From: Sphingomonas cannabina
Lineage (GTDB): Bacteria; Pseudomonadota; Alphaproteobacteria; Sphingomonadales; Sphingomonadaceae
Length of the DNA: 64,000 nt
Assembly (NCBI RefSeq): GCF_021391395.1
Contig: NZ_CP090059.1
Coordinates: forward strand, 4,322,172-4,386,171
Direction: 5' to 3'
Below the pieces are notes generated by a model. The model saw only the letters and a list, made by a program, of their open reading frames with translations. It searched no databases and was not told the DNA's origin. Positions 22,875-63,815 of this stretch are shown here, piece after piece (the stretch's first letter is position 1; every line of letters starts with the position of its first letter). The translations under genes and the position numbers were made by a program.

Positions 22875-23052
22875 TAGGGTCCAAACCCATAAACGGCAGT
22901 GGCCGTGACGGAGCGGATTTTGGTGCAGGGCTAGGAGTGAGGAAGGAGCGATGCGGATAGCATCGTGACTGACGAGCGACGACGCCATGCGCCAAAATCC
23001 GCCCGTCCCTCCGGGCGATCACGGTCGTTGCCGTTTATGGGTTTGGACCCTA
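22875..23052. repeat. 178-bp palindromic element (family R5) with 24-bp perfect arms
   Basis: TAGGGTCCAAACCCATAAAC plus GGCA at 22875-22898 is repeated in perfect inverted form at 23029-23052. Inner arms 22912-22927 and 22988-23003 also pair (14 of 16). The element could form a long hairpin around a loop of about 60 nt. Its right arm lies inside the 3' end of the flippase gene and supplies that gene's last codons (RVQTHKRQRP). It could serve as terminator of that operon or be a MITE-like insertion. Confidence 0.8.
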
Positions 23053-42821: not shown

Positions 42822-43078
42822 GCGGGCGCCCACTCTTCATGTTCCTTGCGTGCGGGGGCGATCGACATCGCTCCCTCCTCGCCGTCACCCCGGACTTGCC
42901 TCCCCAAATCCAGGGTTCCGGACGATAACGCCCCGCCTCGAACAACTGCAGACACGACCGAAGCCGACGCCTCAGTCCGCGCCGGAATCCCTCCAAAATA
43001 TTTTTTCGATTCCCCATTTTTCCCTTGCGTTTCGCGAACGCAAGGAAAGTCCGCGCGTCGCTGCGCCGCACCGCCTCA

Positions 43079-43102
43079 CCCCGGCCGCGGACCGGGGCTT
43101 TT
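43079..43102 (+). terminator. Possible intrinsic terminator
   Basis: CCCCGG and CCGGGG pair around a 7-nt loop and are followed by CTTTT. It could end transcripts from the small gene at 42528-42821 and insulate nrdA. Short T tract; modest support. Confidence 0.35.
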
Positions 43103-43147
43103 CAGCGCTTCATCGCACATTTACCAGTTGCACTCCCCGGCAAATGG

Positions 43148-43193
43148 GCACAATCTGTTGTGGCTCCGCAGGGGGACACACGCAATCGTTGGT
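43148..43193. promoter_or_regulatory. Pair of NrdR-box-like sites upstream of nrdA
   Basis: GCACAATCTGTTGTGG (43148-43163) contains the perfect dyad CACAA/TTGTG and agrees with 12 of 16 positions of the NrdR-box consensus acaCwAtATaTwGtgt. ACACGCAATCGTTGGT (43178-43193) is weaker (9 of 16) but lies 30 bp away, about three helical turns. NrdR boxes normally occur in helically phased pairs before nrd operons. The repressor gene is not in the window. Confidence 0.5.
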
Positions 43194-43336
43194 AAACCGG
43201 GCCCGCGACCCCATATCGTGGGCGGTGGCCTCGTCTGCGCCCCGGCAGAGGAGGGTCACGCTTTGTTCCAGGGCGTGGCGGGTGTAGGATGGGGGATCAT
43301 CCCCCGAGTCGATCGTACGAAGCAGGGGTTGGTGCC

Positions 43337-45256
43337 ATGGATTTCAGAGACACGTCGGAGAGCCGGGTGAACGAAGCCGCCGCCGCCACGCTGGAGGCCG
43401 CCGGAGCCGCGATCGCCGCTGCGTCGGCGGACGCGTCGCTCGCCGATTCCAAGTCGGTGGCGCCGCAGCCCTATCCGGTCGAGATCGACCGCAGCCGCGA
43501 CGCACTCCTCACCGATTTCGGCAAGGAGACGCTGCGCGACCGCTATCTGCTGCCCGGCGAGAGCTACCAGGACCTGTTCGTTCGCGTCGCCTCCGCCTAT
43601 GCCGACGATGCCGAGCACGCCCAGCGCATCTACGACTATATCTCGCGGCTGTGGTTCATGCCGGCGACGCCGGTGCTGTCGAACGGCGGCACCGGGCGCG
43701 GCCTGCCGATCAGCTGCTACCTCAATTCGGTACCCGACAGCCTGGAGGGCATCGTCCAGACCTGGAACGAGAATGTCTGGCTCGCGTCGCGCGGCGGCGG
43801 CATCGGCACCTATTGGGGCAATGTCCGCGGCATCGGCGAGCCGGTCGGCCTCAACGGCAAGACCAGCGGCATCATCCCCTTCGTCCGCGTGATGGACAGC
43901 CTGACGCTGGCGATCAGCCAGGGGTCGCTGCGTAGGGGGAGCGCCGCCTGCTACCTCGACATCTCGCATCCGGAGATCGAGGAGTTTCTCGAGGTGCGCA
44001 AGCCCTCGGGCGACTTCAACCGCAAGGCGCTCAACCTCCACCACGGCGTGCTCATCCCCGACGCGTTCATGGAGGCGGTGCGCGACGGCGCCGAATGGGA
44101 GCTGAAGTCGCCGAAGGACGGCTCGGTCCGCGGCAAGGTCGACGCGCGCGCGCTGTTCCAGAAGCTGGTCGAGACCCGCCTCGCCACCGGCGAGCCCTAT
44201 ATCGTGTTCTCGGACCACGTGAACTCGACGATGCCCAAGCATCACCGCGACCTGGGGCTCAAGGTCTCGACCTCGAACCTCTGCTCGGAGATCACGCTGC
44301 CCACTGGCCGCGACCATCTCGGCAACGATCGCACCGCGGTGTGCTGCCTCAGCTCATTGAACCTCGAGACCTGGGACGAGTGGAAGGGCGACAAGCAGTT
44401 CATCGAGGACGTGATGCGCTTCCTCGACAACGTCCTGACCGACTATATCGAGCGCGCGCCCGACGAGATGGCCCGCGCCCGCTATTCGGCGAGCCGCGAG
44501 CGTTCGGTCGGCCTCGGCGTGATGGGCTTCCACAGCTTCCTCCAGGCGCGCGGCCTGCCGATGGAGGGCGCGACCGCCAAGGCATGGAACCTCAAGATCT
44601 TCAAGCACATCAACGCCCAGGTGAACGAGGCGTCGATGGCGCTGGCGATCGAGCGCGGCCCGTGCCCCGACGCCGCCGAGATGGGGGTGATGGAGCGCTT
44701 CAGCTGCAAGATGGCGATCGCGCCGACCGCGTCGATCAGCATCATCTGCGGCGGCACCTCGGCGTGCATCGAGCCGATCCCGGCCAACATCTACACCCAC
44801 AAGACGCTGTCGGGCTCGTTCGCGGTCAAGAATCCGTATCTGGAGAAGCTGCTGACCGAGAAGTCCAAGAACTCGGACGCAGTGTGGAACTCGATCCTCG
44901 AGCGCGGCGGCTCGGTCCAGCATCTCGATTTCCTGAGCCAGGACGAGAAGGACGTGTTCAAGACCTCGTTCGAGATCGACCAGCGCTGGCTGCTCGAGCT
45001 CGCCGGCGACCGCGCGCCCTATATCGACCAGGCGCAGTCGCTGAACCTGTTCATCCCGGCCGATGTCGAGAAATGGGACCTGCTGATGCTCCACTTCCGC
45101 GCGTGGGAGCTCGGCATCAAGTCGCTCTATTACCTGCGCTCCAAGTCGGTCCAGCGCGCGGGTTTCGCCGGCGGGGTCGAGGCCGACAACACCATCGACC
45201 TCAAGCAGATCGAGCTCGAGGCGAAGGACTATGACGAATGCCTGGCGTGCCAGTGA
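43337..45256 (+). CDS. nrdA: Ribonucleoside-diphosphate reductase, large (alpha) subunit
   Basis: 639 residues from the ATG at 43337. It lacks an N-terminal ATP-cone, so it is shorter than E. coli NrdA. Active-site features: ISCYLNSVPD (first redox Cys), TSNLCSEITLPT (Cys, Asn, Glu radical site), VCCLSSLNL (second redox Cys), and the C-terminal shuttle pair in DECLACQ. FMPATPVLSNGGT and SIICGGTSACIEP are typical. It reduces NDPs with the NrdB radical subunit. The partner gene lies 1.8 kb downstream, separated by inserted elements and small genes. Confidence 0.95.
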   Translation: MDFRDTSESRVNEAAAATLEAAGAAIAAASADASLADSKSVAPQPYPVEIDRSRDALLTDFGKETLRDRYLLPGESYQDLFVRVASAYADDAEHAQRIYDYISRLWFMPATPVLSNGGTGRGLPISCYLNSVPDSLEGIVQTWNENVWLASRGGGIGTYWGNVRGIGEPVGLNGKTSGIIPFVRVMDSLTLAISQGSLRRGSAACYLDISHPEIEEFLEVRKPSGDFNRKALNLHHGVLIPDAFMEAVRDGAEWELKSPKDGSVRGKVDARALFQKLVETRLATGEPYIVFSDHVNSTMPKHHRDLGLKVSTSNLCSEITLPTGRDHLGNDRTAVCCLSSLNLETWDEWKGDKQFIEDVMRFLDNVLTDYIERAPDEMARARYSASRERSVGLGVMGFHSFLQARGLPMEGATAKAWNLKIFKHINAQVNEASMALAIERGPCPDAAEMGVMERFSCKMAIAPTASISIICGGTSACIEPIPANIYTHKTLSGSFAVKNPYLEKLLTEKSKNSDAVWNSILERGGSVQHLDFLSQDEKDVFKTSFEIDQRWLLELAGDRAPYIDQAQSLNLFIPADVEKWDLLMLHFRAWELGIKSLYYLRSKSVQRAGFAGGVEADNTIDLKQIELEAKDYDECLACQ

Positions 45257-45270
45257 GGTGGGACGGGTAG

Positions 45271-45405
45271 GTCGCCCTCACCCTCCCATCGCTGACGCGA
45301 TGGGCCCCTCCTTCTCCCATTGGGAGAGGGATTGCGGCGCATACCAATTCCCTCTCCCATTGGGAGAGGGAGGGAGCCGCGAAGCGGCGGAAGGGTGAGG
45401 GCGAC
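45271..45405. repeat. 135-bp element of palindromic repeat family R1, left of the DUF559 gene
   Basis: The element is bounded by a perfect 14-bp inverted repeat (GTCGCCCTCACCCT ... AGGGTGAGGGCGAC) and contains two CTCCCATTGGGAG-type hairpins. Related copies are at 45754-45819, 45838-45893, 50284-50486 and 56450-56586. The ATG of the DUF559 gene lies 4 bp beyond its end. Confidence 0.85.
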
Positions 45406-45408
45406 ACG

Positions 45409-45828
45409 ATGTCCATGCGCCTCTACGCCAACCAACCCGCCGGCACCGTCACCCGACTCCGAACACTTCGCCGCAACGCGACCGAGGCGGAAAAGCGTTT
45501 GGTACGCGCGCTCAAGGAGGCATTCCCCACGCACAAGTGGCGTTTCCAGGCGCCGCTCGGCCCATTCCGTGTCGATGTCCTGTGCTTCTCCGAGCGACTG
45601 GTGATCGAGATCGACGGCGGCCAGCATGCTGAAGCCGCGGCCCACGACGCCGCCCGCACCCGCTTCATCGAAGGCGAAGGATACCGCGTCCTGCGCTTCT
45701 GGAACAACGACGTGATGGAAAACATCGAAGGCGTGATCGAGGCGATCCAAACCTCCCTCTCCCATTGGGAAAGGGAAGGGGCCCGCTCGGCGCAGCCGAG
45801 TGGGAAGGGTGAGGGTGACCGCGCATGA
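45409..45828 (+). CDS. DUF559 endonuclease-like protein (Vsr/PD-(D/E)XK superfamily)
   Basis: 139 residues. LRRNATEAEKRLVRALKE, then PFRVDVLCFSERLVIEIDGG with QH: the Asp and E-x-D residues fit a Vsr-like nuclease core; GYRVLRFWNNDVMENIEGV is the conserved end of the fold. The remaining about 25 residues (SLSHWEREGARSAQPSGKGE) are translated repeat sequence. The gene is bracketed by R1 palindromic elements on both sides: the start lies 4 bp after one and the stop lies beyond the end of another. This suggests that gene and repeats travel together. No methyltransferase is nearby. Confidence 0.8.
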   Translation: MSMRLYANQPAGTVTRLRTLRRNATEAEKRLVRALKEAFPTHKWRFQAPLGPFRVDVLCFSERLVIEIDGGQHAEAAAHDAARTRFIEGEGYRVLRFWNNDVMENIEGVIEAIQTSLSHWEREGARSAQPSGKGEGDRA

Positions 45829-45893
45829 TCGCACCCGCCACCCTCACCCCTCCGCCGCTGCGCGGCTCCTCCCCTCTCCCAAAGGGAGAGGGG
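45754..45893. repeat. Two R1 copies in inverted arrangement, right of the DUF559 gene
   Basis: Copy 45754-45819 reads CCCTCTCCCATTGGGAAAGG then GGCCCGCTCGGCGCAGCCGA and GTGGGAAGGGTGAGGGTGA. Copy 45838-45893 is its inverted partner (CCACCCTCACCCCTCCGCCG ... CCCTCTCCCAAAGGGAGAGG). Together they form a large imperfect palindrome. The first encodes the C-terminus of the DUF559 protein. Confidence 0.85.
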
Positions 45894-45902
45894 ATCATGA
45901 GT

Positions 45903-46145
45903 TCAGGCCTCCTCCTCGAACGTCACCGCGACGTCGCCGTTTGCGGACAGGCGCACCTTGTCGCCCTCGACCTCGGCGACCAGGCCGAGCGAGATGTAAT
46001 GATGGTGCCCCTGGTGGCTGCCTTCGCCGCTGTCGGCCTTGATCAGCTTGATGCGGTCTCCTTCGACGCGGTCGACGGTGCCGACATGGACGCCGTCGGC
46101 GCCGATCACTTCCATATGTTCGCGGATTGCACTGGCATCGGCCAT
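45903..46145 (-). CDS. DUF2171 domain protein
   Basis: 80 residues; two consecutive ATGs (46148, 46145) follow AAGGAG, the second with better spacing. The core AIREHMEVIGADGVHVGTVD and RIKLIKADSGEGSHQGHHHY then YISLGLVAEV is a PRC-barrel-like DUF2171 domain, often found in stress-related small proteins. It is on the opposite strand to nrdA and nrdB, divergent from the next small gene. Confidence 0.8.
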   Translation of the reverse strand: MADASAIREHMEVIGADGVHVGTVDRVEGDRIKLIKADSGEGSHQGHHHYISLGLVAEVEGDKVRLSANGDVAVTFEEEA

Positions 46146-46228
46146 CATTGGTCTCCTTCTGAGGGTTCGCGCCGCCAACGCTTGCGCCGCCGAAACGATG
46201 CATCGCCGACAGCAGCAAGGCTCGCCGC

Positions 46229-46537
46229 ATGATCCGCGCACGCACTCTCCTCCTCGCCGTCGCCCTCGCGAGCCTCGCCGCCTGCGCCAGGCAGGTCGGC
46301 TCCGCGGTGGAGCCCGCCGCCCCCGGCTTCCTGTGGGGCGTGTGGCACGGCTTCATCTTCCCGGTCGCCTGGGTGCTGAGCCTGTTCATGCCCGACGTCG
46401 CGATCTACGCGGTGCCGAACAACGGCGGCTGGTACGATTTCGGCTATTTCGTCGGCATCGTCTTCCTCGGCGTCGGCGCCCGCAGCACGCGCAAGGTCTA
46501 TATCGAGCGCATCGTCTACCGGGACAGGAGCCGATGA
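46229..46537 (+). CDS. Small lipoprotein-like membrane protein
   Basis: 102 residues. Lipobox-like SLAACAR follows TLLLAVALA; the mature part has aromatic-rich PGFLWGVWHGFIFPVAWVLS and FGYFVGIVFLGVGA helices. Similar proteins of about 100 residues occur near nrdB or phage-shock-type genes in alphaproteobacteria; function unknown. Its stop overlaps the next start (ATGA). Confidence 0.65.
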   Translation: MIRARTLLLAVALASLAACARQVGSAVEPAAPGFLWGVWHGFIFPVAWVLSLFMPDVAIYAVPNNGGWYDFGYFVGIVFLGVGARSTRKVYIERIVYRDRSR

Positions 46538-46728
46538 GCCGCGCGCCCCTCATCATGTACGGCGTCGGCGCCTTGAGCCTCATGGGCAGCGCGGTCGTCG
46601 CGACGCGCCCGGCGAAGGACGAGGGCGCGGTCTACCGCCGCCGCATCGCCGCCGCGATGCTCGGCGCCTTCGCGCTGTTCATGACCGGCTTCGCCACCGC
46701 GAGCCTGCTGGCGGGAGTGGGGGGATGA
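46534..46728 (+). CDS. Small two-helix membrane protein
   Basis: 64 residues with two hydrophobic helices (LIMYGVGALSLMGSAVVA and IAAAMLGAFALFMTGFATAS) joined by a charged loop (RPAKDEGAVYRRR). Not recognised. It overlaps the genes on both sides by 4 nt, so it belongs to a coupled series leading to nrdB. Confidence 0.6.
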   Translation: MSRAPLIMYGVGALSLMGSAVVATRPAKDEGAVYRRRIAAAMLGAFALFMTGFATASLLAGVGG

Positions 46729-47042
46729 GAGGAATGCTCCGGAACGCCGACGTCCGCGCGATAGTCGTCCCGGTCGTTGTGATCGCCCTCTATTACGCAA
46801 TCTCGTCGCTGACCGGCTTCGGCGCCTGGGTAAACGCGAACCCGGTCGCCAGCGCCATCGTTCATGTGCTCGGCGTTCTTCTCTTCGGCGGGCTGGGCCT
46901 TCTCACCTTGCTGGGCTCCCGTTGGGACCGGCAGCTGCGATCGCTGGGCTATCGCCTCATCGGAGTCCTGTTCCTCGGCTTCGCCGCCATTCACGCCGCA
47001 TTGCTCGTCAGCGGCGCCAACAACCCATCTGATCTTTTCTAG
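46725..47042 (+). CDS. Small three-helix membrane protein
   Basis: 105 residues, three hydrophobic helices (IVVPVVVIALYYAISSLTGF, AIVHVLGVLLFGGLGLLTLL, LIGVLFLGFAAIHAALLVSG). No family recognised. It starts within the stop of the preceding gene and ends 16 bp before nrdB, so it is probably cotranscribed with nrdB. Confidence 0.6.
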   Translation: MRGMLRNADVRAIVVPVVVIALYYAISSLTGFGAWVNANPVASAIVHVLGVLLFGGLGLLTLLGSRWDRQLRSLGYRLIGVLFLGFAAIHAALLVSGANNPSDLF

Positions 47043-47058
47043 TCTCGGAGTAAGTCTC

Positions 47059-48117
47059 ATGCCCCTTCTCGACGCCCGCAAGACCTACAAGCCCTTCGAA
47101 TATCCCTGGGCGTATGAATTCTGGAAGCGCCAGCAGCAGATCCACTGGATGCCGGAGGAGGTGCCGCTGGGCGAGGACTGCCGCGACTGGGCGCAGAAGC
47201 TCGACCAGACCGAGCGCAACCTCTTAACGCAGATCTTCCGCTTCTTCACCCAGGCCGACGTCGAGGTGCAGGACTGCTACCACGACAAATACGGCCGCGT
47301 GTTCAAGCCGACCGAGATCAAGATGATGCTGGCCGCGTTCAGCAACATGGAGACGGTCCACATCGCCGCCTACAGCCACCTGCTCGACACCATCGGCATG
47401 CCCGAGAGCGAGTACGGCATGTTCCTCGAATATGCCGAGATGAAGGACAAGCACGACTATCTGCAGCAGTTCGGCGTCGACAACGACGAGGACATCGCCA
47501 AGACGCTGGCGATGTTCGGCGGCTTCACCGAGGGGCTGCAGCTGTTCGCGAGCTTCGCGATGCTGATGAACTTCCCGCGCTTCAACAAGATGAAGGGCAT
47601 GGGCCAGATCGTGTCCTGGTCGGTGCGCGACGAGAGCCTGCACTGCGAGGGCATCATCCGCCTGTTCCACGAATTCGCGAAGGAGCGCGATTGCCTCACC
47701 GCTGCGGTCAAGCGCGACATCCGCGACATGTGCCACACCACCGTCGACCTCGAGGACGCGTTCATCGACCTGGCGTTCGAGCAGGGCCCGGTCGACGGCA
47801 TGAGCGCGGAGGAGGTGAAGCGCTACATCCGCTACATCGCCGACTGGCGCCTGGGGCAGCTCGGCCTCAAGCCGATGTTCATGATCAAGGAGCACCCGCT
47901 CCCCTGGCTCACCCCGCTGCTCAACGGCGTCGAGCACGCCAACTTCTTCGAGACCCGCGCGACGGAATATTCGAAGGGCGCGACGCGGGGCGATTGGAAC
48001 TCGGTGTGGGATTCGTTCGACAAGCGCCAGAAGGCCAAGCGCGACAAGGCGGCGAACGAGGATGGCGAGGGGAGCGGGGGGGATATGTTCTCGGCGGCGG
48101 GGGTCGCGGCGGAGTGA
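47059..48117 (+). CDS. nrdB: Ribonucleoside-diphosphate reductase, small (beta) subunit
   Basis: 352 residues from the ATG at 47059. Di-iron and radical residues are visible: SNMETVHIAAYSH (E-x2-H-x3-Y, the radical Tyr present), FTQADVEVQD (Asp ligand region), GFTEGLQLFASFAML and SVRDESLHCEGI (Glu and E-x2-H ligands). The family C-terminal tail here is a poor, Gly-rich GEGSGGDMFSAAGVAAE. It carries the tyrosyl radical for NrdA in the cytoplasm. Confidence 0.95.
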   Translation: MPLLDARKTYKPFEYPWAYEFWKRQQQIHWMPEEVPLGEDCRDWAQKLDQTERNLLTQIFRFFTQADVEVQDCYHDKYGRVFKPTEIKMMLAAFSNMETVHIAAYSHLLDTIGMPESEYGMFLEYAEMKDKHDYLQQFGVDNDEDIAKTLAMFGGFTEGLQLFASFAMLMNFPRFNKMKGMGQIVSWSVRDESLHCEGIIRLFHEFAKERDCLTAAVKRDIRDMCHTTVDLEDAFIDLAFEQGPVDGMSAEEVKRYIRYIADWRLGQLGLKPMFMIKEHPLPWLTPLLNGVEHANFFETRATEYSKGATRGDWNSVWDSFDKRQKAKRDKAANEDGEGSGGDMFSAAGVAAE

Positions 48118-48130
48118 GGCGCGCCGCGCA

Positions 48131-48221
48131 GGGATTTAGCGTCAGCTAAATCCCGCTCCCCGGCGGCGCGCCCGGCCGGCGGCGCCTCAAGCGCCGACCG
48201 AGGCACGGGCTTTGCCCGTGC
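48131..48221. terminator. Hairpin cluster after nrdB
   Basis: Three hairpins in 90 bp: GGGATTTAGC/GCTAAATCCC (48131-48154, perfect 10-bp stem, loop GTCA), GGCGC/GCGCC (48181-48195) and GCACGGGC/GCCCGTGC (48203-48221, loop TTT). They lie between the convergent ends of nrdB and the next gene; no long T tract follows, so termination is probable but not certain. Confidence 0.5.
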
Positions 48222-48919
48222 TATTCCTCATCAGTCCACACTGCTTTCATTATTTCTATGTGCTGGATAAGGCGGTTTAGGGCCGTCTCAGTTAGCGGAC
48301 CCTCAAACGCCAGTTCTACATTACACGTTCGTGATAGAGTGAGACGCTCTACGAGACGATCCGAGGCTGGTGAACGTGATATAGATATCTCTGCGGTTGC
48401 GGTGTTGGGTTCTTCAACCGTTCCCCTTGCTGGGTTCGGATCCACAACCTCCTCTTCAGCGATTGTACCAATCTCCGAGATAGTTTGGCGAAGGCTGGCG
48501 ATACAATCTCCCGCACCACTCGAGCTAAAATCCTTATTTCGTATAAGATAAGAGCGCAGTGCTTCGTCAGAGCGCGGGATGTGACCACTAAAGTGGGTTC
48601 TTATCTCAGAGAAGATTTCCGGTTTGAATGCTGCCATCTCAAGAGCATCTTTCTTCTCCTGATTAGATGACGGCTCCAGTATAGCTAACGCGAGATCACT
48701 AATTCTGACAGTGCCACGTAGGCCCTCTAACAAACCGTACTGTCTAAGCGCACCTAGAACCGTTGCGCTAGTACCACTCTTTCCAGAAAACCCTAAAATT
48801 TTGTAGGCCGTATCTGTCTCAATGGCACTACGATGTGCCTCCTCATAAAAGCGACTAGTATGATTAACCGCCGCCAAGAGCGATATACGCGGATAGCGTG
48901 GACTACGGGTGTCAGCCAT
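48221..48919 (-). CDS. Low-GC hypothetical protein with winged-helix N-terminus
   Basis: 232 residues from the ATG at 48919 after an excellent AAGGAGGT site. The first about 75 residues look like a winged helix (RISLLAAVNHTSRFYEEAHR, GTSATVLGALRQYGLLEGLR, RISDLALAILEP). A middle part with IPRSDEALRSYLIRNKDFSS follows, then a variable acidic region and a C-terminal small domain. Similar proteins occur singly in many bacteria; function unknown. The gene is about 48% GC in the parts counted, against about two thirds around it, so recent acquisition is likely. Confidence 0.6.
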   Translation of the reverse strand: MADTRSPRYPRISLLAAVNHTSRFYEEAHRSAIETDTAYKILGFSGKSGTSATVLGALRQYGLLEGLRGTVRISDLALAILEPSSNQEKKDALEMAAFKPEIFSEIRTHFSGHIPRSDEALRSYLIRNKDFSSSGAGDCIASLRQTISEIGTIAEEEVVDPNPARGTVEEPNTATAEISISRSPASDRLVERLTLSRTCNVELAFEGPLTETALNRLIQHIEIMKAVWTDEE

Positions 48920-50283: not shown

Positions 50284-50486
50284 GGTCACCCTCACCCTTC
50301 CGGCGCTCCGCGCCTCCCTCCCTCTCCCAAAGGGAGAGGGACTCATCGCGCCCTAACTCTCCCTCTCCCATTGGGAGAGGAGCGTTGGGTCGGCCATGCC
50401 CCCGGCATGGCCTGAACGATGCGGGGCATCGTTCACCCAACGCTGGGCCCGCTCGGCGCAGCCGAGTGGGAAGGGTGAGGGTGACC
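50284..50486. repeat. 203-bp MITE-like element (family R1) with 18-bp perfect terminal inverted repeats
   Basis: GGTCACCCTCACCCTTCC (50284-50301) is repeated in perfect inverted form at 50469-50486. Inside lie CTCCCATTGGGAG-type hairpins and a nested core: GCGTTGGGT/ACCCAACGC (50382-50390/50435-50443) encloses GGCCATGCC/GGCATGGCC and TGAACGATGC/GCATCGTTCA, a potential three-way junction. No gene inside. Confidence 0.85.
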
Positions 50487-54499: not shown

Positions 54500-54642
54500 A
54501 GCTCCTCCCCGGCACGGGGAGGGGGACCGCGCGACGAAGTCGCGTGGTGGAGGGGGCCCTCCATGTCGGTTGCCGCCTGCGGCCTGCCCCTCCACCAAGC
54601 CGCTACGCGTCTTGGTCCCCCTCCCCGTGCCGGGGAGGAGCT
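54500..54642. repeat. 143-bp palindromic element (family R3) with 29-bp perfect arms
   Basis: AGCTCCTCCCCGGCACGGGG plus AGGGGGACC at 54500-54528 recurs in perfect inverted form at 54614-54642. The interior (GCGACGAAGTCGC hairpin, TGGTGGAGGGG / CCCCTCCACCA) is also palindromic. It lies between the convergent... here same-strand genes divK and otsB and may end divK transcription. Confidence 0.85.
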
Positions 54643-56449: not shown

Positions 56450-56586
56450 CCCCTCTCCCTTTGGGAGAGGGGAGGGGCCCGCTCGGCGAAGCCGAGTGGG
56501 AGGGGTGAGGGCGATCTCACTCGCCGCAGCCACCCTCACCCTCCCGCCGCTTCGCGGCTCCTTCCCTCTCCCAAGGGGAGAGGGAC
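56450..56586. repeat. R1 palindromic repeat pair
   Basis: Two inverted copies: CCCTCTCCCTTTGGGAGAGG with the CGCTCGGCGAAGCCGAGTG hairpin, and the reverse CCACCCTCACCCTCCCGCCG ... CCCTCTCCCAAGGGGAGAGG. It lies directly after the ridA stop and could act as its terminator. Confidence 0.8.
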
Positions 56587-63705: not shown

Positions 63706-63712
63706 TGCCCCT

Positions 63713-63812
63713 CCGTCATGCCGGACTTGTTCCGGCATCCACGATGCCGCCAGTCCTTTGGCCAAAGGGTATGCGGAACCGTGGACCCCGGCACAAGGCC
63801 GGGGTGACGAAG
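63713..63812. repeat. Dispersed repeat family R2, copy 2
   Basis: Starts GTCATGCCGGACTTGTTCCGGCATCCAC-like (ATGCCGGACTTGTTCCGGCA hairpin) and ends GTGGACCCCGGCACAAGGCC then GGGGTGACGAAG; matches the head and tail of 12353-12477. It lies between folA and the dipeptidase gene. Confidence 0.75.
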
Positions 63813-63815
63813 AGG

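Follow-up and report, generated by a model that had tools for sequence, protein, structure and literature searches.

The gene considered here lies in a 64,000-nucleotide stretch of the Sphingomonas cannabina genome (contig NZ_CP090059.1, positions 4,322,172 to 4,386,171), hereafter the window, and encodes a small nuclease of the DUF559 family between nrdA and nrdB, bracketed by inverted palindromic elements termed R1. This arrangement, put forward in a preliminary description made from the sequence letters, is borne out by a match of the 139-residue protein to PF04480 (DUF559; 105.8 bits, E 1.4e-30, above the Pfam gathering score of 20.6 bits) and by mapping of the flanking blocks. The left block (45271-45405) has perfect 14-bp terminal inverted repeats (TIRs; GTCGCCCTCACCCT / AGGGTGAGGGCGAC) and is separated from the ATG by 3 bases, and the right block (45754-45893) begins within the open reading frame (ORF) and encodes the C-terminal ~24 residues, both much as first described. 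Each block proves to be a composite of two half-units rather than one simple element. Specifically, a half-unit consists of a palindrome, P, with a C/T-rich arm, a 3-base loop and a G/A-rich arm, followed by a G-rich tail with a small hairpin. Single-strand folding of the four half-units beats that of shuffled sequences (z -2.8 to -4.8), and positions 45841-45895 form an inverted repeat with 45347-45401 (55 nt, 89%). Coordinates are collected in the table, in which tail' denotes a tail in inverted orientation.

Table. Features of the window at and around the DUF559 gene (positions are those of the window).
Feature	Position	Strand	Remarks
nrdA (PF02867/PF00317), upstream neighbour	43289..45256	+	
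Outer left half-unit, tail'-P	45271..45331	-	14-bp TIR, small hairpin, palindrome CCTTCTCCC-ATT-GGGAGAGGG
Inner left half-unit, P-tail	45347..45405	+	palindrome CCCTCTCCC-ATT-GGGAGAGGG, hairpin CCGC-GAA-GCGG, 14-bp TIR
DUF559 (PF04480) nuclease gene, Vsr/EDxHD-like PD-(D/E)XK	45409..45828	+	139 aa; conserved R21 E28 Q47 D56 E67 D69 H73 D80 R83 R96
Inner right half-unit, P-tail	45754..45819	+	first part coding, C-terminal ~24 residues
Outer right half-unit, tail'-P	45839..45893	-	
DUF2171 gene, convergent downstream neighbour	45903..46241	-	
Gene-less R1 copy	50287..50483	.	TIR-P-spacer-P-TIR; nested palindromic insertion ~50381-50444
Gene-less family III pair (CCTCCCCGGCACGGGGAGG)	54500..54642	.	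same family as brackets DUF559 gene L003
Gene-less R1 copy	56451..56585	.	P-tail-linker-tail'-P; P to P 113 bp

The DUF559 protein has the core fold and acidic active site of PD-(D/E)XK nucleases, and its catalytic residues are almost invariant. It is homologous to the catalytic domain of EDxHD homing endonucleases, the closest functionally characterised fold being that of the homing endonuclease I-Bth0305I. Against the Vsr family profile TIGR00632 it scores 14.1 bits, far below the cut-off of 97.85 bits. The set assembled for nonsynonymous versus synonymous substitution (dN/dS) comprised 121 pairs from 17 sequences with dS 0.1-2 and a median dS of 1.3. A defence-system reading of DUF559 genes was considered and rejected, the PADLOC matches being weak and partial (the best, to DpdF at 1.3e-8, was for the DUF559 gene L004).

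A search of the 4.386-Mb genome recovered four DUF559 genes, all with inverted palindromic repeats on either side, of a family that differs from gene to gene: R1 at the window gene, family II (CCTCCCCCGCCAGGGGGAGG) at L002, family III (CCTCCCCGGCACGGGGAGG) at L003 and family IV (CCTCCCCGAGCTCGTCTCGGGGAGG) at L004. Set against one DUF559 gene for each family, the genome has 43 family II palindromes and 64 matches to the R1 core palindrome with ≤2 mismatches, the reversed pattern giving 0. The gene-less R1 copies fetched from this genome are mostly P-tail-linker-tail'-P units measuring 105-117 bp from P to P. For the relative G463, 15 loci were obtained and 12 measured, three at the nrdA site being left out; 10 of the 12 sites are 94-97 bp tail'-P-tail units with CACCCTCACCCT-like ends at ≤2 mismatches, and in the sole G463 unit for which a fold was computed (L325) the paired end repeats enclose three hairpins (-41.8 kcal/mol, z -7.4). 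Terminal inverted repeats, uniform length and many copies are attributes that the repeats share with miniature inverted-repeat transposable elements (MITEs). A profile search of the genome for PF01797 (Y1_Tnp), the type of the transposases associated with repetitive extragenic palindromic (REP) sequences and known as RAYTs, gave no match; other transposase families were not searched. A Fur-family gene (PF01475; L010 1501-2310, G000:C1:1099091-1099900) has gene-less R1 pairs on both sides, so bracketing alone is possible without a nuclease gene.

We surveyed the flanks of DUF559 genes across phyla and among the nearest relatives of this genome's four DUF559 proteins. A draw across phyla gave DUF559 matches in 161 of 397 genomes and none in 236, and loci were taken as 30 from this draw, 40 more regions from the same draw and 80 named loci. 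The survey of 153 genes is score-ranked and non-random, joining the top-ranked matches of the phylum draw (70 loci) to the 80 loci nearest this genome's four proteins; the longest non-overlapping ORFs of the surveyed loci served as controls (for the palindrome test, 400 drawn and 340 with full flanks). In a matched-flank test, the 350 bases before the domain were locally aligned to the reverse complement of the 350 bases after it, which was feasible with full flanks for 152 of 156 DUF559 ORFs. Matched inverted flanks with a score of at least 40 occurred at 97/152 DUF559 genes versus 4/1035 control ORFs, and with a score of at least 70 at 31/152 versus 0/1035; the bracketed gene L003 scores low in this test owing to an overlap between its repeat and the domain. 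Palindromes with a pyrimidine arm flank 109/153 DUF559 genes on both sides versus 1/340 controls, one-sided palindromes occurring upstream of 19/340 and downstream of 19/340 control ORFs. The bracketing of DUF559 genes by palindromes is far beyond chance, and it is family-specific. The preliminary description had staked its case on DUF559 genes not generally lacking linked repeats, and both tests came out on its side.

Beyond the brackets, an extra copy of the flanking palindrome was present elsewhere in the fetched stretch at 19 of 130 loci (reversed control, 0/130). Of seven loci read from outside the Proteobacteria, the four from Chloroflexus, Ignavibacteria, Gastranaerophilales and Uhrbacteria are flanked by palindromes on either side and the other three on one side. 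One-sided genes include short single-copy genes of family f52 genomes (L025, L028, L033, L040 and L162). At a Neisseria locus (L271) and an Azospirillum locus (L270) the palindrome finder misses one side each, a near copy being visible by eye upstream in L271. The L271 gene, from Neisseria gonorrhoeae, is preceded and followed by CTCTCCCTGTGGGAGAG-type palindromes bearing GAGAGAGGG tails, which stand in direct order.

Several genomes of the genus have 4-10 DUF559 matches each, and ~7 palindrome families recur across these genomes. From nine genomes, 66 matches gave 61 distinct genes, of which 60 were kept and one, without an upstream palindrome, was dropped. Across genomes, the similarity of end sequences tracks protein identity (Spearman 0.47, 1586 pairs); shuffling ends among the paralogs within a genome gave a mean of 0.00 (sd 0.04), and the observed correlation was reached in 0/1000 shuffles. 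The most similar end in a genome belongs to the ortholog (≥50% identity) in 207 of 318 comparisons, where chance would give 49.7. Repeat type, in these nine genomes, goes with protein type and not with the genome.

The same correspondence is seen in which genomes hold which repeats: in 121 genomes of the genus, families II and IV each co-occur with their own DUF559 ortholog rather than with that of the other. Ortholog cut-offs (E ≤ 1e-51 for family IV and ≤ 1e-43 for family II) were chosen after the lists had been inspected, and G406, with a single reverse-strand match, was scored zero in the family IV count. Family IV palindromes are present in 12/12 genomes with the IV ortholog versus 21/109 without it (Fisher 3e-8, ignoring shared ancestry) and exceed the gene's own two ends in 8 of the 12. 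Family II palindromes are present in 23/23 genomes with the II ortholog versus 26/98 without it (2e-11, again ignoring shared ancestry), with median copies of 29 versus 0. Where a single ortholog is present, IV repeats occur in 7/7 IV-only and 2/18 II-only genomes, and II repeats in 18/18 II-only and 2/7 IV-only genomes, the latter two with single copies. One to three in-frame stops fall within the match in 15 of the 23 family II orthologs; in the three of these that were read (L387, L269 and L295) the stop comes after the domain has ended, 62-70 residues past the EVDGE motif.

The nrdA-nrdB stretch was sought in the 121 genomes and its interval read in 50, from the top of the list. A DUF559 gene stands between nrdA and the DUF2171 gene (or its place), always in one orientation, in 32 of the 50, and is absent from 18, one of which (L213) has a lone P-tail at the site. 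Two protein types use this position, each with its own palindrome (three-base loop versus CTTGT loop), and replacement of type A by type B, or the reverse, is also seen between species with flanks ~90% identical (L188, L198). The outer left half-unit is polymorphic, being present in the window and in L182 and missing in L188, a 93% relative of L182, and a half-unit resembling the inner left one stands at the syntenic locus of relatives. Precise empty sites of the gene cassette, which the preliminary description had proposed to look for here, were not obtained at nrdA, because the flanking intergenic DNA is too diverged and that of gene-less species does not align.

Repeat sites away from nrdA were compared by a joined-flank search with eight G463 R1 sites in eight relatives and by alignment of five of these sites in four relatives each. 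R1 was common to 3 of the 20 aligned cases (s326 and s338 in G502, s325 in G515), and the other 17 have short alleles or other sequence, partly palindromic and including other families. The s337 site, for example, is occupied in G502 by a single palindrome of family III, and in G460 and G515 by palindromic elements of greater length. The locus L339 (G502:C1:1039267-1039461) holds a lone family III palindrome at a position where its relatives L372 and L373 carry longer palindromic elements, which looks like either the loss of an element or one that has yet to grow there. The gain, loss and replacement of repeats at these sites is turnover, and is not proof of transposition. The mobile cassette with REP-transposase-like logic that was originally proposed is supported in part: the logic is strengthened by the cognate pairing of nuclease and repeat, whereas mobility is not, turnover being all that was seen.

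Other features of the window were also mapped. Downstream, nrdB (PF00268) is separated from the DUF559 gene by the DUF2171 gene and short ORFs, and an Rfam search of 43000-48500 gave no match. Where four further R1 loci had been counted initially, we find two (50287-50483 and 56451-56585), which hold four palindromes between them. The stretch 54500-54642 was considered as an R1 locus and rejected, as it belongs to family III, the repeat of another DUF559 gene (L003). A second palindromic element, of the AGCGTTGGG...CCCCCGGCATG...CCCAACGCTGG type, is nested within R1-type tails at a similar position in the window (50381-50444) and in L191, L179, L214 and L218. The sequence CCCACTGT or a close variant precedes the palindrome in 7 of 25 aligned R1 half-units (L007, L008, L009, two in L012, L018 and the window minus strand at 56564), and the remaining half-unit ends are without such a border. 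Other inverted or palindromic repeats of the window lie at 63708-63815 and 22875-23052 (TCATGCCGGACTTGTTCCGGCAT type; TAGGGTCCAAACCCATAAACGGCA arms).

Given the pairing of nuclease type with repeat family, the conservation of the active site, the numbers of copies and the absence of RAYT genes, the nuclease is the best candidate to act on its own palindrome. We consider that the window probably holds a unit similar to a REPtron (a REP-based system of enzyme gene and repeats), in which the place of the HUH transposase is taken by a Vsr/EDxHD-type nuclease whose cutting of its own palindromes lets them spread. The unit, laid out as palindrome P and G-rich tail, DUF559 gene, and inverted tail and P, would be the autonomous, enzyme-coding member of a REP-like palindromic repeat family, and the gene-less units (P-tail-linker-tail'-P or tail'-P-tail, ~95-140 bp) would be its non-autonomous relatives. 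The nuclease may recognise its own palindrome or tail as a hairpin or cruciform and nick or cut there; repair or replication would then copy the repeat, and occasionally the gene too, to new intergenic sites. Each DUF559 paralog in the cell would serve its own palindrome family. Bracketing, cognate pairing, dispersal, co-occurrence and a conserved active site are established by the comparisons, whereas recognition, cutting and copying are inferred from them; movement of the repeats by the nuclease is probable but unproven.

A number of observations weigh against this interpretation. No transposition, excision or cleavage was observed in the sequence comparisons, and no target-site duplication was seen at the five aligned sites, where the R1-less alleles are diverged and imprecise. 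Nucleases of the PD-(D/E)XK type cleave DNA by hydrolysis and leave the ends unjoined, so that the joining has to be done by the host's repair or replication. Bracketing is incomplete in 44 of the 153 surveyed genes, with the palindrome missing on one side in 41 and on both in 3, and in 111 of the 318 ortholog comparisons the most similar end is not that of the ortholog. The co-occurrence counts, which carry no correction for shared ancestry, also contain exceptions. Specifically, among the 12 IV-ortholog genomes there are 4 with ≤2 IV palindromes, a number that the two ends of the gene itself account for; G439 and G430, the next two below the IV cut-off, are without IV palindromes; and among the 91 genomes with neither ortholog, IV palindromes occur in 19 and II palindromes in 20. 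Some genomes hold many orphan repeats with no ortholog above the cut-off, those of family II numbering 137 in G487, 56 in G486 and 26 in G504, and those of family IV 28 in G506. However, two family II palindromes enclose a diverged DUF559 gene (59%) in G492, and a 62-residue piece (73%) is present in G413, and part of the orphan-repeat genomes may therefore have distant or broken orthologs.

The main rival is a homing-like selfish gene, whose nuclease would cut cassette-less (or solo-palindrome) alleles, recombinational break repair then copying the gene with its repeats and gene-less repeats being deletion products. The likeness in fold to I-Bth0305I speaks for this route, as does the presence of the cassette at one site in 32/50 related genomes, with replacement between types A and B there in close relatives. 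However, with a single gene of each family the genome has 64 R1 cores and 43 family II palindromes, at many sites and in uniform layout; deletion alone explains so many dispersed and uniform copies poorly, and we regard the homing-like route as unlikely.

Both remaining alternatives rank below the REPtron-like reading. A role in host repair, with a Vsr-like enzyme acting on T:G mismatches or hairpins and the repeats being hot spots moved by something else, has a parallel in Caulobacter VsrA, which according to PMC12907096 (2026) is a DUF559 protein with the same domain and a proposed mismatch-repair enzyme. That the repeats are specific in family for the nuclease type, that DUF559 is without a match in 236/397 sampled genomes yet present 4-10 times in some, and that the Vsr family score is so low (14.1 versus a 97.85-bit cut-off) all argue against such a role, which appears distinctly improbable. 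Most improbable of all is a passenger composite, in which the repeats owe their spread to an unrelated transposase and DUF559 genes became trapped between two copies: two inverted flanking copies can trap any gene, and the Fur-family gene also lies between R1 pairs, but controls are seldom bracketed (4/1035 and 1/340), the genome has no PF01797 gene (the one transposase family searched), and a trapped gene would not retain one repeat family per nuclease type across genomes.

Returning to the REPtron-like reading, a wider claim, to which we would give an even chance, is that stand-alone DUF559 nucleases serve specifically to move a large class of palindromic repeats, so far unrecognised and distributed over Proteobacteria and several further phyla, with the shared architecture of C/T-arm, loop, G/A-arm and G-rich tail. 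Such units would be transposase-free mobile elements, in which a hydrolytic nuclease would cut the hairpins of its own family and the copies would be made by the replication or repair machinery of the host, with several cognate pairs per cell. DUF559 is titled a family "of unknown function" in Pfam, and the pairing supplies a concrete candidate substrate, its own flanking palindrome; the repeat families of GC-rich bacteria, in turn, gain a candidate mover.

Several known systems resemble the unit in part. The Vsr very-short-patch repair endonuclease differs in that the window protein falls far under the Vsr family score, and in the text of the Caulobacter VsrA paper (PMC12907096) the terms palindrom, transpos and CIR do not appear. 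I-Bth0305I is, according to PMC3943268, a long multi-domain protein of a mobile intron, whereas the window's DUF559 protein consists of one small domain and is encoded next to palindromes. The Caulobacter CIR repeats, described in PMC2229807 as ~110 bp, intergenic, with two long inverted repeats and an unknown mobility mechanism, are by that description alike in size and layout to the repeats here, as are other bacterial MITEs. In the open-access literature, no paper linking DUF559 to repeats was found among titles and abstract openings. The bracketing of so many DUF559 genes, each type by its own repeat family, suggests an undescribed repeat-spreading system that is REPtron-like but has an unrelated enzyme.

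The closest parallel is with RAYT (TnpA-REP) and its REP sequences, bacterial interspersed mosaic elements (BIMEs) and REPINs, the "REPtrons". In both, an enzyme gene is flanked by multi-copy inverted palindromic pairs, gene-less copies lie elsewhere in the genome, and enzyme type is tied to repeat family. GTAG tags were scored in 25 R1 units, with 0 within 8 nt before the palindrome and 1 within 10 nt after the tail; CGTC tags were not scored. The enzyme here is a PD-(D/E)XK (Vsr/EDxHD-like) nuclease and not a HUH Y1 transposase (PF01797), and the repeats differ in having a C/T-arm and a G/A-arm with a G-rich tail. E. coli TnpA-REP cuts single-strand REP, according to PMC8266576, so the REPtron-like logic has a precedent with an unrelated enzyme. 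The present system, if it works as we propose, would mean that systems of REP-like repeats have at least two separate origins, with unrelated enzymes.
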